A stretch of 64,000 nucleotides of DNA, from contig NZ_WBKP01000005.1 of assembly GCF_009602465.1 (NCBI RefSeq), forward strand, positions 62,001-126,000. Direction: 5' to 3'. A program made the position numbers and the translations under genes. Below the pieces are notes generated by a model. That model had not been told where the DNA came from. It ran no database searches and saw nothing but the letters and a program-made list of their open reading frames with translations. The stretch is from Cumulibacter manganitolerans. Its GTDB lineage: Bacteria > Actinomycetota > Actinomycetes > Mycobacteriales > Antricoccaceae. Below, in pieces: positions 7,045 to 43,649 of this stretch (position 1 is the first letter of the stretch; each line of letters begins with the position of its first letter).

Positions 7045-7440
7045 ATGACGTTCCAGGAAGCCATGGAGGTCGTCGGCAAGACCGTCGACGCGGCGGGTGT
7101 GGTCGCGATCGTGCTCGGCGTGCTCGCCGCCACCCTCATCGCGGCGGCGGCCTTGCTGCGCCGGTCGGACACGGACGTCTATCACCGTTACCGGAGGCTG
7201 CTGGGCCGCTCGATCCTGCTCGGCCTGGAGCTGCTCGTCGCGGCCGACATCATCCGCACCGTGGCCGTCACTCCGACCTTCCGCTCGGTGGGCGTCCTGG
7301 CCGTGATCGTCATCATCCGGACGTTCCTGAGCTTCTCGCTGGAACTGGAGATCACCGGGCGGTGGCCCTGGCAGAAGGAGCCGGACGATCGGGACGGGGC
7401 CGCGGTCAGCCGCTCGACCACCGGCGCGTCTGCCGCCTGA
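7045..7440 (+). CDS. DUF1622 membrane protein
   Basis: The 131-residue protein has three hydrophobic helices (about 18-38, 55-75 and 80-95), with a conserved LLGLELLVAADIIRTV segment and a WPW motif near the end, as in the DUF1622 family of small bacterial membrane proteins without known function. The ATG at 7045 has an AAGGAGG site at 7034-7040. The ATG four bases earlier is out of frame. It converges on rdgB. Confidence 0.85.
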   Translation: MTFQEAMEVVGKTVDAAGVVAIVLGVLAATLIAAAALLRRSDTDVYHRYRRLLGRSILLGLELLVAADIIRTVAVTPTFRSVGVLAVIVIIRTFLSFSLELEITGRWPWQKEPDDRDGAAVSRSTTGASAA

Positions 7441-39228: not shown

Positions 39229-39774
39229 TCACGTCGACGGCGCCCGCTCGGTGAGACCGACCACCGGCGCCTTCACGGTGATCGTTCCGGCGTGCTCGAG
39301 CACCAGCTTCAGGTTCACCGTCGAGCCCGGGACGATCGTCCCAGTGACGCCGTCGAGCATGAGGTGCCCGGACCCCGGCTGCAGGGTGACCACGTCGCCG
39401 GGCTCGAGCACCACCGTGGGGCTCGGCACCATCGACCCGGAGTCCATCGGCCCCTCGTCCGACATCGGCTTCTTGCCGACGTCGTGCAGCATCGCCGACT
39501 TCGCGACCGGGCTCGACACCGCGACCACGGTGTCGGCCGTGTCTCCGATGTTGCGGATGGTGAAGTAGGCCGCGGCGGTGTCCGTCGCGGGCTCCCGTAC
39601 GTAGGCGCCGTACACCGCGATGCCGCCCTGCGTCACCGCGTCGGAGGGCAGCCGCGGGCTCCGGTCGCCGCCGCGCAGCCCCATCACGAGGGCGGTCGCG
39701 CCCAGCACCACCGCGAGCAGCGCGATCACCAGCCGCCACGGCAGCCGTCCAGGATCGACCTGATCAACCGACAT
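39229..39774 (-). CDS. PCuAC copper chaperone, membrane-anchored
   Basis: The 181-residue protein has an N-terminal anchor helix (about 14-33) and a PCuAC domain with the H-x10-M...H-x-M style Cu(I) site: MLHDVGKKPM and GSGHLML. PCuAC works with Sco to deliver copper to cytochrome oxidase outside the membrane. Its start overlaps the CopCD gene by 11 bases and sco follows after 26 bases. A short Met/Ser/Gly insertion (SDEGPMDSGSM) between the ligand motifs adds further Met residues. Confidence 0.9.
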   Translation of the reverse strand: MSVDQVDPGRLPWRLVIALLAVVLGATALVMGLRGGDRSPRLPSDAVTQGGIAVYGAYVREPATDTAAAYFTIRNIGDTADTVVAVSSPVAKSAMLHDVGKKPMSDEGPMDSGSMVPSPTVVLEPGDVVTLQPGSGHLMLDGVTGTIVPGSTVNLKLVLEHAGTITVKAPVVGLTERAPST

Positions 39775-41434
39775 CGATGCTCCCCTCCGCGCTCACCACG
39801 CCGAAGCCGGCCTCGGTGAACGTCACCGAGACCGTCCAGCCGCCGGACGCCGGCAGCTCGACACCGCTCGCGATGAAGTGTCCGGTGCCCACATTGCGGG
39901 CGGTGACGTCGAGCGGGCCGATCTGCGCCGCCGCGTTCTGCACGGTCACCGTGACCGCGTCGAGGTCGGCGAGCGCGTTGCTCCGGTCGAAGACGTACAG
40001 GTGCAGCGTGTTGGGTCCCTTGCGCGCCGGATCGAGGCTCGCTTGCGCCACATAGCCGTTGTCGAAGGAGATCTGCGCATCCCGGGCGACCGCATAGGTG
40101 TCCCGGGCCGGCGGCGTGGCGACGAGCACGGCCGCGACCGCGATCGCCGCCAGGCCGGCCACGGCCTCCGCGACCAGCGGACGCCGCAGCCGCGACAACG
40201 CCTGCCGCGCGTCATCGTCCGGCAGCGGGGACGACCGGCTCCGCAGCAACCGCCGGGTGAGCACGGCCGCGCCGAGCGCGACCGCGAGCAGGGTCGTCTT
40301 GGCCACCAGCAGCCGGCCGTACGCCGTCCCGAACAGCGCTCCCCAGGAGCCAACCCGGACCCACGCCTCGGCCACGCCGGTCACGACGATGACGCTCACC
40401 AGGGCGGCCGCGACCGGGGAGAAGCGCAGCGCTACCGCGCGCTGCTCGTTGGCGCTCAGGCCGGCCGCGCCGAGCACGGCCAGCAGCAGGACCGCGAGGC
40501 CGCCGATCCACGCCGCGGCCGCCGACAGGTGCACCGTGCCGCCGAGGACGGCCAGCCACGGGAGGCCGTCGGAGACCGCGTGCCCACTCGCCGCGTACGT
40601 CGCCGCGGTAGCGACCACGGTCCCCGCCGCTGCCCAGGCCACCGGCCTGCGGTCGCGGTCGGCGTCGTACCACTCCCACAGCAGCACCCCCAGGACGCCG
40701 AGCAGCACGAGGCGCACGGCGCTCATGCGACCCACCTCCGTCTCGAGCGTCGCCGACATCAGCGTGGGATCGAGAACCGAGCCGACGCCTCGACCGGCGG
40801 CGTACGGGCCTTGCAGCAGACCACCGAGCACCGTCGCGCCCAGCGCCCCGTCGAACCCGATCCACGCCCACCGACGCAACCGCGCGACTGCCCGCATCGC
40901 CGGATCGAGCAGCGCCAGCAGCACGGCTCCGGCGAGCAGCGCGAGCCCGCTGTAGCCGATCCACCGCACGAGCGGGTACAGCACGCCGATCACCGGGTCG
41001 TCGCCCGCGCCGTCCAGCCGCGTGCCGTTGGAGTCGATCTGCGGAGGCGTCGCGTTGCCGACGGCGAAGGAGATCGCGCCGGCCACCGGATGCGAGTCGT
41101 CCGACAGCACGCGATAGGTCGCGACGTAGCCGCCGTCACCGAGCGCCGACGGCAGCGACACCTGCACGGCGCTGCCGTCGACCGACACGTTGCCGGTGTC
41201 GACGCGCTCCCCGGCGGCGTCCAGCACCCGCAGGTATCCGGCGGACAGGCTCACCGACTCCGAGAACTCGATGCGTACCGACGTCGGCGCGGTGGCCAGC
41301 ACGTCGCCGTTGCCCGGCGTCGAGGTGACGAGGGAGGCGTGCGCCCAGGCGGCGGTTCCGGTGCCGAGGACGGCGACGACGGCGAGCAGCACGGCCAGGA
41401 CCGTCCGCCGCACCCGGCAGATCAGCTGGGTCAC
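39764..41434 (-). CDS. CopC-CopD fusion copper transport protein
   Basis: The 556-residue protein joins a secreted CopC domain and an eight-helix CopD domain. After the signal peptide (ending AWA) the mature protein begins HASL, giving the N-terminal His of the CopC Cu(II) site; DDSHP supplies a further ligand. CopD helices contain conserved His in AASGHAV and GGTVHLSAAAAW. A C-terminal beta domain of about 110 residues follows the last helix. Proteins of this type import copper for cuproenzymes. GTG start overlaps the anti-sigma stop (GTGA). Confidence 0.92.
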   Translation of the reverse strand: MTQLICRVRRTVLAVLLAVVAVLGTGTAAWAHASLVTSTPGNGDVLATAPTSVRIEFSESVSLSAGYLRVLDAAGERVDTGNVSVDGSAVQVSLPSALGDGGYVATYRVLSDDSHPVAGAISFAVGNATPPQIDSNGTRLDGAGDDPVIGVLYPLVRWIGYSGLALLAGAVLLALLDPAMRAVARLRRWAWIGFDGALGATVLGGLLQGPYAAGRGVGSVLDPTLMSATLETEVGRMSAVRLVLLGVLGVLLWEWYDADRDRRPVAWAAAGTVVATAATYAASGHAVSDGLPWLAVLGGTVHLSAAAAWIGGLAVLLLAVLGAAGLSANEQRAVALRFSPVAAALVSVIVVTGVAEAWVRVGSWGALFGTAYGRLLVAKTTLLAVALGAAVLTRRLLRSRSSPLPDDDARQALSRLRRPLVAEAVAGLAAIAVAAVLVATPPARDTYAVARDAQISFDNGYVAQASLDPARKGPNTLHLYVFDRSNALADLDAVTVTVQNAAAQIGPLDVTARNVGTGHFIASGVELPASGGWTVSVTFTEAGFGVVSAEGSIDVG

Positions 41435-42111
41435 CGCGGCATCAACCCACCCAGCCGTGCAGATGCGGACGGCTCGGCGGCCGGCACCGGCCGCCAACCG
41501 CGACGCCGCCGCATCAGCCACGCCACCACCGCCACCAGGAGCAGCCCGAGAGCGACCAGCGCGTGCGAGAGCACCCGCTGCACCGAGACCGCCCCGTCGG
41601 CCAGGTCGCGCACCGAGGCATAGCCGAGGACGGCCACCAGGCCGCCGATCGTCGGCAGCAGGGCGAACGCGGCGTGCGGGCGCAGCGCGGCCGTAGCGAG
41701 CCCGAGGCCGATCGCGATGTTCCACGCGCCGGACTCCGCGGCGGCGTGCAGGCCCTCGTCGTGCGAGCTGCCGAGCAGCAGCAGGACGCCGACGACGAGC
41801 TGTGCGATGGCCACCGCCATCAGTGCGGCGCGCGCCAGCGACAGGCCGAAGGACGGCCGCGGGACGCTGCCGAGAATCGCCGAGAGGATCCGCTCGGTCA
41901 GGTCAGGGACGTCGTCCGCGGCGCGCATCCGCAGCGGACGCAGCAGGCTCGGCACGTCGCGGGCCCACGCGGCACACTGCGCGCAGCGCGCCAGGTGCAG
42001 GGACGTCTCGACCGGCGCCGGCTCGCCGTCGAGCTGCGCCGACAGCGCCTCGCGGCACGTCGCGCAGGTCACGTCGAGCCCCGCACTACCCTGGTCGTCA
42101 GCTGTCCGCAC
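41431..42111 (-). CDS. zinc-finger (ZAS) anti-sigma factor, membrane bound
   Basis: The 226-residue protein has an N-terminal anti-sigma zinc module, His39-x3-Cys43-x2-Cys46 with Cys16/Cys19 upstream, followed by about five membrane helices. It would hold the divergently encoded SigC-like factor inactive at the membrane and release it on a periplasmic or copper signal. It heads the operon containing CopCD, PCuAC and Sco. GTG start at 42111. The number of membrane helices is higher than the single one usual in such proteins. Confidence 0.85.
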   Translation of the reverse strand: MRTADDQGSAGLDVTCATCREALSAQLDGEPAPVETSLHLARCAQCAAWARDVPSLLRPLRMRAADDVPDLTERILSAILGSVPRPSFGLSLARAALMAVAIAQLVVGVLLLLGSSHDEGLHAAAESGAWNIAIGLGLATAALRPHAAFALLPTIGGLVAVLGYASVRDLADGAVSVQRVLSHALVALGLLLVAVVAWLMRRRRGWRPVPAAEPSASARLGGLMPR

Positions 42112-42141
42112 CGTCGCCTGCTTTCTCCCTCGGAGGGGGTA

Positions 42142-42168
42142 GTCGACCTGCCGGCACCGAAAGTTCCC
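42142..42168 (-). promoter_or_regulatory. candidate ECF-type promoter of the anti-sigma/CopCD operon
   Basis: On the minus strand GGGAAC (42163-42168) is followed after about 17 bases by CGAC (42142-42145), spacing and composition like ECF promoters (GGAAC...CGTC). It lies about 30 bases before the anti-sigma start, in the gap shared with sigC. If real, the sigma factor would autoregulate the copper operon. Confidence 0.35.
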
Positions 42169-42185
42169 GACCCGAAGCGAGCCCG

Positions 42186-42737
42186 ATGAACAACGCGCCT
42201 ACCTCGGCCGAGGTCACGCGGTGGGCGATCCGGGCCGGCAAGGGCGACATGACGGCGATGGCGTTGTTCGTGCGCGCCACCCAGGGCGAGGTGTGGCGGG
42301 TGTGCGCGCACCTCGGCAACCGATGGGCCGCCGAGGACCTGACGCAGGAGGTCTACCTGCGGGCCCACCGGTCGCTGCCGAGGTTCCGGGGTGACTCCTC
42401 CGCGCGAACCTGGCTGCTGACCATCGCCCGGCGCGTGTGCGCCGACCACGTGCGCGAGCAGCAGCGCCGCCCCAAGACCGCTCCGCTGGACGAGGCCGCC
42501 GAACCCGTCGACGAGGGCGGCGACCCCGCGTCGTACGCCGCGCTGCGCGGCCTGCTGGAGACCATCGACCCCGACCGCAAGGAAGCTTTCGTGCTGACCC
42601 AGTTGCTTGGGCTCGGCTACGCCGAGGCCGCGGACGTGTGCGGGTGCCCGGTGGGAACGATCCGGTCGCGGGTCGCCCGAGCCCGCGACGACCTGGCGAG
42701 CGCCGTCCGCGCCGCGGAGGACGTCGCCGCCGGCTGA
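42186..42737 (+). CDS. sigC: ECF RNA polymerase sigma factor, SigC-type
   Basis: The 183-residue protein has sigma region 2 (EDLTQEVYLRAHRSLPRF, followed by SSARTWLLTIARR) and region 4 (GLGYAEAADVCGCPVGTIRSRVARARDDL). The CGCPVGTIRSRVARARD segment and overall layout closely follow Mycobacterium SigC. It diverges from an operon of anti-sigma, copper import and Sco genes. ATG at 42186 is chosen because it starts just ahead of region 2, as in the family. A 19-base tandem repeat spans its stop codon. Confidence 0.93.
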   Translation: MNNAPTSAEVTRWAIRAGKGDMTAMALFVRATQGEVWRVCAHLGNRWAAEDLTQEVYLRAHRSLPRFRGDSSARTWLLTIARRVCADHVREQQRRPKTAPLDEAAEPVDEGGDPASYAALRGLLETIDPDRKEAFVLTQLLGLGYAEAADVCGCPVGTIRSRVARARDDLASAVRAAEDVAAG

Positions 42738-42766: not shown

Positions 42767-42952
42767 GCCGCTGTGCTGGGGATATGGCCGCCTGCGCAGC
42801 CCCCGCAAAACCCCGGGAAAAATCTTCGGATCCTTGAGGAACCTGGCGGCACGGGTGAGCATCAACTAGAGGCACAACCTGATCGTGCCGATGCGGCACC
42901 CCCCTGATCATCCACTCAGACACTCAAGTGCCTTTTCCACAAGGAGACCATC

Positions 42953-43603
42953 ATGGAGTACTTCGACACTGACGGCAACGGCGTTGCCGACTCGGTCGGC
43001 TACGACACCAACGGGGACGGTGTCCTCGACACCTTCGAGGTCGACACCGACGGCGACCAGTGGGCCGACACCACCGTCACCGACTTCAACAACGACGGCT
43101 ACGCGGACGGCTACGCCGCCGACCCCTCGGCGCCCGGCGGTGACTACTACGCCGGCGGAGAGACCACCGCGGCCGGTGGCCACACCTACGACTCGGACGG
43201 CGACGGCGTCGCCGACCAGGTCGGCTACGACACCAACGGCGACGGCGTCGACGACACCTACAACATCGACACCAACGGCGACCAGTGGACCGACACGACC
43301 GTGACCGACTTCGATCACGACGGCTACGCGGACGCCGGTTCGTCGCAGCCCTACGCCAACCAGTACGACACCGGTGGCTCGGCCGGCGGCTCGACGTCCT
43401 CCGGCTCGTCGGGGTCGGCCGCGGCGTCGTCCGGCCCGCACTACTACGACTCGGACGGTGACGGCGTCGCCGACCAGATCGGCTACGACACCGACGGGAA
43501 CGGCGTCGACGACGTGTACGAGGTCGACACGGACGGCGACCAGTACACCGACACCACCGTCACCGACTTCGACGAGGACGGCTGGTCGGACCAGCAGGTC
43601 TAG
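42953..43603 (+). CDS. acidic protein with twelve calcium-type loops in three 48-residue blocks
   Basis: The 216-residue protein has three blocks of exactly 48 residues (5-52, 80-127, 166-213), joined by Gly/Ser/Ala/Tyr-rich linkers. Each block holds four D-x-[DN]-x-[DN]-G-x-x-D loops starting every 13 residues (5, 18, 31, 44; 80, 93, 106, 119; 166, 179, 192, 205). The fourth loop of each block begins TVTDF. Such loops bind calcium in EF-hand, dockerin and thrombospondin type-3 proteins. No signal peptide or membrane helix is visible, so it appears cytoplasmic or exported by an unusual route. AAGGAG precedes the ATG. It lies after sigC and ends at a strong terminator. Confidence 0.85.
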   Translation: MEYFDTDGNGVADSVGYDTNGDGVLDTFEVDTDGDQWADTTVTDFNNDGYADGYAADPSAPGGDYYAGGETTAAGGHTYDSDGDGVADQVGYDTNGDGVDDTYNIDTNGDQWTDTTVTDFDHDGYADAGSSQPYANQYDTGGSAGGSTSSGSSGSAAASSGPHYYDSDGDGVADQIGYDTDGNGVDDVYEVDTDGDQYTDTTVTDFDEDGWSDQQV

Positions 43604-43617
43604 CCACATCGCACGTC

Positions 43618-43649
43618 AAGAGGGGCCAGGCAGCTGCCTGGCCCCTCTT
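43618..43649. terminator. perfect 32-base palindromic terminator
   Basis: Sixteen-base arms (43618-43633 and 43634-43649, AAGAGGGGCCAGGCAG and its complement) meet without a loop and end in CTCTTC. It lies between the calcium-loop gene and the converging YjbR gene, so it serves both. Confidence 0.88.

Follow-up and report, generated by a model that had tools for sequence, protein, structure and literature searches.

The window analysed here, a stretch of 64,000 nucleotides from Cumulibacter manganitolerans (Mycobacteriales; Antricoccaceae), carries on its forward strand a gene for a 216-residue repeat protein with predicted calcium loops (42953..43603). A sequence-only reading had placed the open reading frame at these positions and had described three 48-residue blocks with a loop spacing of 13 residues, all of which proved exact. 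Block 1 covers residues 5-52 (42965..43108, loops starting at residues 5, 18, 31 and 44), block 2 residues 80-127 (43190..43333, loops at 80, 93, 106 and 119) and block 3 residues 166-213 (43448..43591, loops at 166, 179, 192 and 205), all on the forward strand. Twelve D-x-[DN]-x-[DN]-G-x-x-D loops had been claimed; nine match strictly, but in each block the third loop departs from the motif with Q for G (DTDGDQWAD at 31, DTNGDQWTD at 106 and DTDGDQYTD at 192), and 14 of the 15 third loops of the orthologues retain this Q. Composition-preserving shuffles gave a mean of 0.10 strict matches and a maximum of 3 (n=5000). The loop positions expected to supply calcium ligands are the most conserved columns among orthologues, and, linker residues apart, the alignment shows no domain outside the loops and no interaction surface that is conserved. 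A linker segment, YYAGGE (residues 65-70; 43145..43162, forward strand), includes a YxxxE motif, which every orthologue and one paralogue retain as YxxxD/E.

The protein is extremely acidic (pI ~4), with 47 Asp and 5 Glu giving 52 acidic residues, and has no Lys, Arg or Cys. Neither a signal peptide nor a membrane helix is present, as had been read from the sequence: the highest 19-residue mean hydropathy is -0.08, and the frame stays open for just 15 codons 5' of the start, so that no signal peptide can be hidden there. The start codon follows a Shine-Dalgarno sequence, AAGGAG (42941..42946, forward strand), and GAC serves for 46 of the 47 Asp codons; this codon usage and the strong ribosome-binding site are consistent with high expression. 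Just past the stop codon the sequence reads as a perfect GC-rich inverted repeat (43618..43649, forward strand), a possible terminator that has no T-run and was not picked up by the terminator scan. An antisense open reading frame (42908-43609) most likely arises as a side effect of the GC-rich repeat.

Is such a protein peculiar to one genome? Each of the five genomes of its family (five species, three genera) has an orthologue, with 71-80% identity to the window protein, two genera additionally have paralogues, and in one genome (G001) the orthologue is followed in tandem by two of them. Leaderless proteins with the same 13-residue loop period are common across the Mycobacteriales, and relatives are encoded on Rhodococcus and Prescottella plasmids. 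All orthologues and nearly all relatives lack a leader; one relative with the same loops (locus L014, genome G056) appears to start with a signal peptide, so that a secreted form also occurs. The protein could be assigned to no family in Pfam, NCBIfam, Rfam or the sequences of the PDB. The nearest Pfam family to the repeat proteins is DUF6802 (PF20615), of which the literature searched yielded no mention, and the likeness lies below the gathering cut-off of 27 bits throughout: the paralogue L026 scores 22.7 bits, other relatives 14-20 bits, and the window protein gives no match at E up to 1. The earlier statement that the arrangement was not recognised thus held for the named libraries but not for the order, in which it is common and has DUF6802 as its nearest curated family. 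A tblastn-based scan of genome contigs and a search for the exact GDQ[WY]-type DNA pattern gave no matches, in a collection from which close relatives may be missing and where low-complexity masking may hide repeats. No match was found in the phage collection, and the acidic repeats found in viral contigs were all unrelated. By these comparisons the repeat protein is not unique and belongs to a widespread family without a name.

DUF6802 proteins are also leaderless and acidic, with D-x-D-G-D-G-x-x-D loops every 13 residues, and the mycobacterial-type relatives have the SigM-type promoter too, whereas the window protein has three clean four-loop blocks and neither the MxYCL N-terminus nor the FGL-type middle. 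Its loops share residues D1, D/N3, D/N5, G6 and D9 with the Dx[DN]xDG calcium loops (Rigden and Galperin; PMC3123361) but are set in a leaderless tandem 13-residue array that appears to lack the helices of EF-hands and dockerins and the blades of propellers. An EF-hand has its loop flanked by two helices; the window protein has no Pfam EF-hand match, although paralogues at 7335 and 8324 of L021 exceed the EF-hand_5 cut-off. Thrombospondin type 3 repeats likewise have tandem acidic Dx[DN]xDG loops, in which calcium cores are expected; the window protein differs in its strict 13-residue period and in having no signal peptide and 0 cysteines for disulfide-linked repeats, and it gives no match to the TSP_3 profile. 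RTX proteins of type I secretion offer a parallel to the logic proposed below, in which disordered Asp-rich repeats would fold on calcium after export. However, the window protein has a period of 13 in place of GGxGxDxUx nonapeptides and no known ABC exporter or C-terminal signal, and since GGxGxD is absent on direct reading it is not classed as an RTX protein.

AlphaFold2 on the single sequence gave a pLDDT of just 43. A model of block 2 from a shallow six-row alignment reached pLDDT 73 and pTM 0.47, with only a short strand of four residues every 13 residues and nine-residue loops between. Foldseek against the PDB returned no convincing fold match for this model (best E 8.6), and the best VIA-align score (Z 4.3, 7vfk_B) is within chance. 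The model would fit a small solenoid of calcium loops without proving one. From the ligand pattern of the nine strict and three Q-variant loops, calcium binding appears very likely.

Calcium binding of this kind would also suit a cytoplasmic buffer or sensor (for calcium, Mg2+ or Mn2+) that acts under envelope stress, soaking up calcium that leaks in after the damage that induces SigM. The conserved absence of a leader, the lack of a transmembrane helix and a high capacity of up to 12 loops per 22 kDa speak for this, and EF-hands and calcium blades show that Dx[DN]xDG loops can function inside cells (PMC3123361). However, loops that stand alone, without a cooperative EF-hand pair, are usually weak binders and ill-suited to nanomolar calcium, and one relative (L014) bears the apparent signal peptide described above. 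We regard a buffer as unlikely, though a serious alternative, and the promoters described below bear on it further.

The repeat gene had been described as lying next to sigC. Its neighbour (42186..42737, forward strand) is indeed an ECF factor of SigC type, but its score against the NCBIfam SigC model, 169.6 bits, is below the cut-off of 219. With PCu(A)C, a CopC-CopD fusion and a candidate anti-sigma gene it forms a copper-linked locus of the genus (39229-42737). That the repeat protein is a target of this factor and part of the copper locus (CopC/CopD, PCu(A)C) is suggested by adjacency in the three genomes of the genus, the only ones in which the SigC-like factor and copper genes adjoin it. 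In the two other genera the orthologue is not beside sigC, its neighbours being NIPSNAP and helicase genes (G003) or a sodium:solute symporter (G004), and G004 has no sigC orthologue and an unchanged promoter; the promoter element is moreover absent 5' of sigC, the anti-sigma candidate and the copper genes. The sigC link implied by the earlier reading did not survive these comparisons, and a place in the copper locus is very improbable indeed. We do not judge the sigma factor gene to be part of the system: since the neighbours change between genera and the sigma orthologue is missing in G004, the repeat gene is a self-contained unit.

A different setting is found on Rhodococcus plasmids (L105 7779-9809; L106 7875-9906), where the repeat gene comes first in a conserved cluster that also encodes a C39-family peptidase, a small acidic protein, a sigma factor of ECF type and, farther on, a dynamin family protein. 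The adjoining peptidase raised the idea of a processing partner, which was rejected: no C39 peptidase was found in the five genomes of the family, and in the genomes checked none is close to a repeat gene.

What controls the repeat gene? Upstream of it lies a putative ECF promoter of SigM type, with a -35 element GGAACC (42838..42843, forward strand) that is kept 5' of each of the family's 10 repeat genes and, 16 nt past it, a -10 element CATC (42860..42863, forward strand). Most relatives have CGTC at the latter position, and the CATC variant recurs at L021, L022 and the mycobacterial-type locus L043. The motif GGAACC-N16/17-C[GA]TC was read off the aligned 5' regions of the five orthologues. 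In the form GGAAC[CT]-N16/17-C[GA]TC it stands 92-135 nt 5' of the start codon in 10 of 10 repeat genes of the five genomes and in none of 107 control genes, against a background expectation of ~0.006-0.011 per gene. Since the orthologues supplied the motif, the fair test is that of the five paralogues, all of which have it (5/5, p ~2e-10). The strict form occurs 26 times across the five genomes, not above the reversed control, and five of these occurrences precede repeat genes.

The same element is found at type VII secretion genes. The family has an ESX-4-like locus of EccD, EccB, a WXG100 pair and a mycosin, and the element lies ~90-97 nt 5' of the WXG100 pair in three of the five genomes (G000, G001 and G004; p ~1e-5); it is absent from this position in G002 and G003. 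Autoregulation of the cognate sigma gene through the element was considered and rejected, as no such site was found within 800 nt upstream of the ECF sigma genes scanned in G000 and G004, sigM included.

In Mycobacterium tuberculosis, esx-4 genes including esxU and eccC4 are activated by SigM (PMC10117145). Among 20 genomes of the mycobacterial-type family f7, 18 have GGAAC-N-CGTC exactly 34-36 nt 5' of the start of a DUF6802-type gene, a position at which it occurs in 2 of 981 control ORFs. In the remaining two genomes, the CATC variant lies at -35 in one and the element at -82 in the other. The 34-36 nt spacing from promoter to start implies a leaderless mRNA. In two mycobacterial-type genomes GGAAC-N-CGTC also precedes esxU and eccC4, so that promoters common to repeat genes and ESX-4 genes are seen in two families of the order. 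The DUF6802-type gene lies 8-10 kb from sigM in the four mycobacterial-type genomes in which both were located. Such DUF6802-type genes, for which the spacing implies leaderless SigM-type transcripts, are found at loci L010-L058 (e.g., L109 6538 and L118 6479). The window's own genome has a SigM equivalog (281.8 bits against a cut-off of 190) in a SigM-type neighbourhood, and that of G004, with which sigC is not shared, is 89% identical to it.

Taken with the element at ESX-4 and DUF6802-type genes and the proximity of sigM, this equivalog makes SigM the likely sigma factor of the window gene. The SigM consensus applied here is our reading of mycobacterial-type ESX-4 promoters. By a promoter common to ESX-4 genes and a SigM encoded in the genome, the window gene is a probable member of the SigM regulon, and its SigM-type coregulation with ESX-4 genes, well supported by the sequence statistics, is highly probable. 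The SigM link of the mycobacterial members may already be contained in published SigM regulon tables. Mycobacterial WXG100 matches from one search were set aside because they are not ESX-4 and have no bearing on the promoter question. Close to the 3' end of eccB-type genes, three mycobacterial-type genomes (L293 9076, L294 9267, L301 10388) conserve GGAACTGAG-N-GGCGTCA, which may reflect coding conservation or a promoter.

Repeat genes of other families (f4, f10, f12 and f15) have another, strictly phased element, TGGCAC-N6-GGGAT-N21-TANNNT. It occurs in 28 of 299 genomes scanned, the reversed control giving 3 matches in total, and at least 27 of the 60 unique sites (those with sequence) are 5' of repeat genes. 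Other sites stand 5' of WXG100 pairs, of dynamin-like GTPases, of a proline-rich membrane protein with a dGTPase-like gene after it, and of an operon with DcrB-like and Hsp70 genes, where dGTPase and Hsp70 were named by eye. These loci (L202-L271, e.g., L232, L246, L251, L257 and L237) define a small regulon with a rare element in several families of the order. The element is unrelated to the GGAAC promoter, so that two unrelated control elements join repeat genes with type VII substrates. In genus g17 (L217-L225) a variant (TGGCACGCCGGCGGGAT) stands 5' of a conserved protein of 279-294 residues without a Pfam match. At L239, L243 and L240 (f4) the element precedes large ESX-like proteins of ~790 residues with the N-terminus PDIPDTPADPGTIEA, which resemble export proteins of WXG type extended by a long C-terminal part.

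Promoters held in common specifically with WXG100 export substrates are left unexplained by a cytoplasmic buffer. They could also serve an intracellular self-assembling scaffold, a chaperone-like polyanion that aids assembly of the ESX-4 machine or its substrates and for which calcium would be structural or irrelevant. A regulon common to ESX-4 genes and, in other families, to dynamins and Hsp70 would suit such a role, as would blocks joined by Ser/Gly linkers, which fit a multivalent binder. However, beyond the linker residues neither an interaction surface nor a domain outside the loops is conserved, and the most conserved columns are the putative calcium-holding residues; we consider a scaffold quite improbable.

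Because the repeat genes carry the SigM-type promoter of ESX-4 genes, the repeat protein is probably a partner or cargo of ESX-4 and not an oddity standing alone. Of the roles proposed in the sequence-only reading, these promoters lend indirect support to that of a substrate of a leaderless export route. In the mechanism that we favor, SigM would switch on this leaderless, polyanionic Dx[DN]xDG-loop protein jointly with the ESX-4 type VII genes. In the cytosol, where free calcium is low, its Asp-rich repeats, which have no positive charge, would remain unfolded and soluble, and export would most likely proceed by or alongside ESX-4. Outside, millimolar calcium would fill the loops, and each 13-residue unit would close to a short strand and a calcium loop, giving three rigid rods with flexible Ser/Gly linkers at the cell surface or in the matrix. 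We give even weight to the repeat protein acting outside the cytoplasm and to its not doing so, and the whole model of a SigM/ESX-4-coregulated protein, exported and folding on Ca2+ outside, stands equally in the balance. Export by ESX-4 itself is a tentative proposal, since a common regulon does not prove a common export route and cytosolic members of secretion regulons exist. The GGAAC-N-CGTC promoters at ESX-4 and repeat genes recall the SigM/ESX-4 regulon of mycobacteria (PMC10117145), but the repeat protein itself belongs to none of the WXG100, PE/PPE and Esp groups. It has no WXG, helical hairpin or classic ESX secretion signal, and its YxxxE lies in a non-helical linker.

For the Mycobacteriales at large, it is conceivable, if rather doubtful, that a large class of leaderless 13-residue calcium-loop proteins serves as type VII cargo or surface partners that leave the cell unfolded and fold on the calcium outside, so that an RTX-like logic would have arisen anew for ESX systems. 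The exports and purpose of ESX-4 are still debated, and Dx[DN]xDG loops within bacteria are poorly understood. A family of 'function unknown', whose genes lie near sigM in mycobacterial-type genomes, is thereby given a specific place in the likely SigM/ESX-4 response. If exported and folded by calcium, the repeat proteins would add a new kind of cargo to type VII secretion, and their folding would explain how a leaderless protein stays competent for export.
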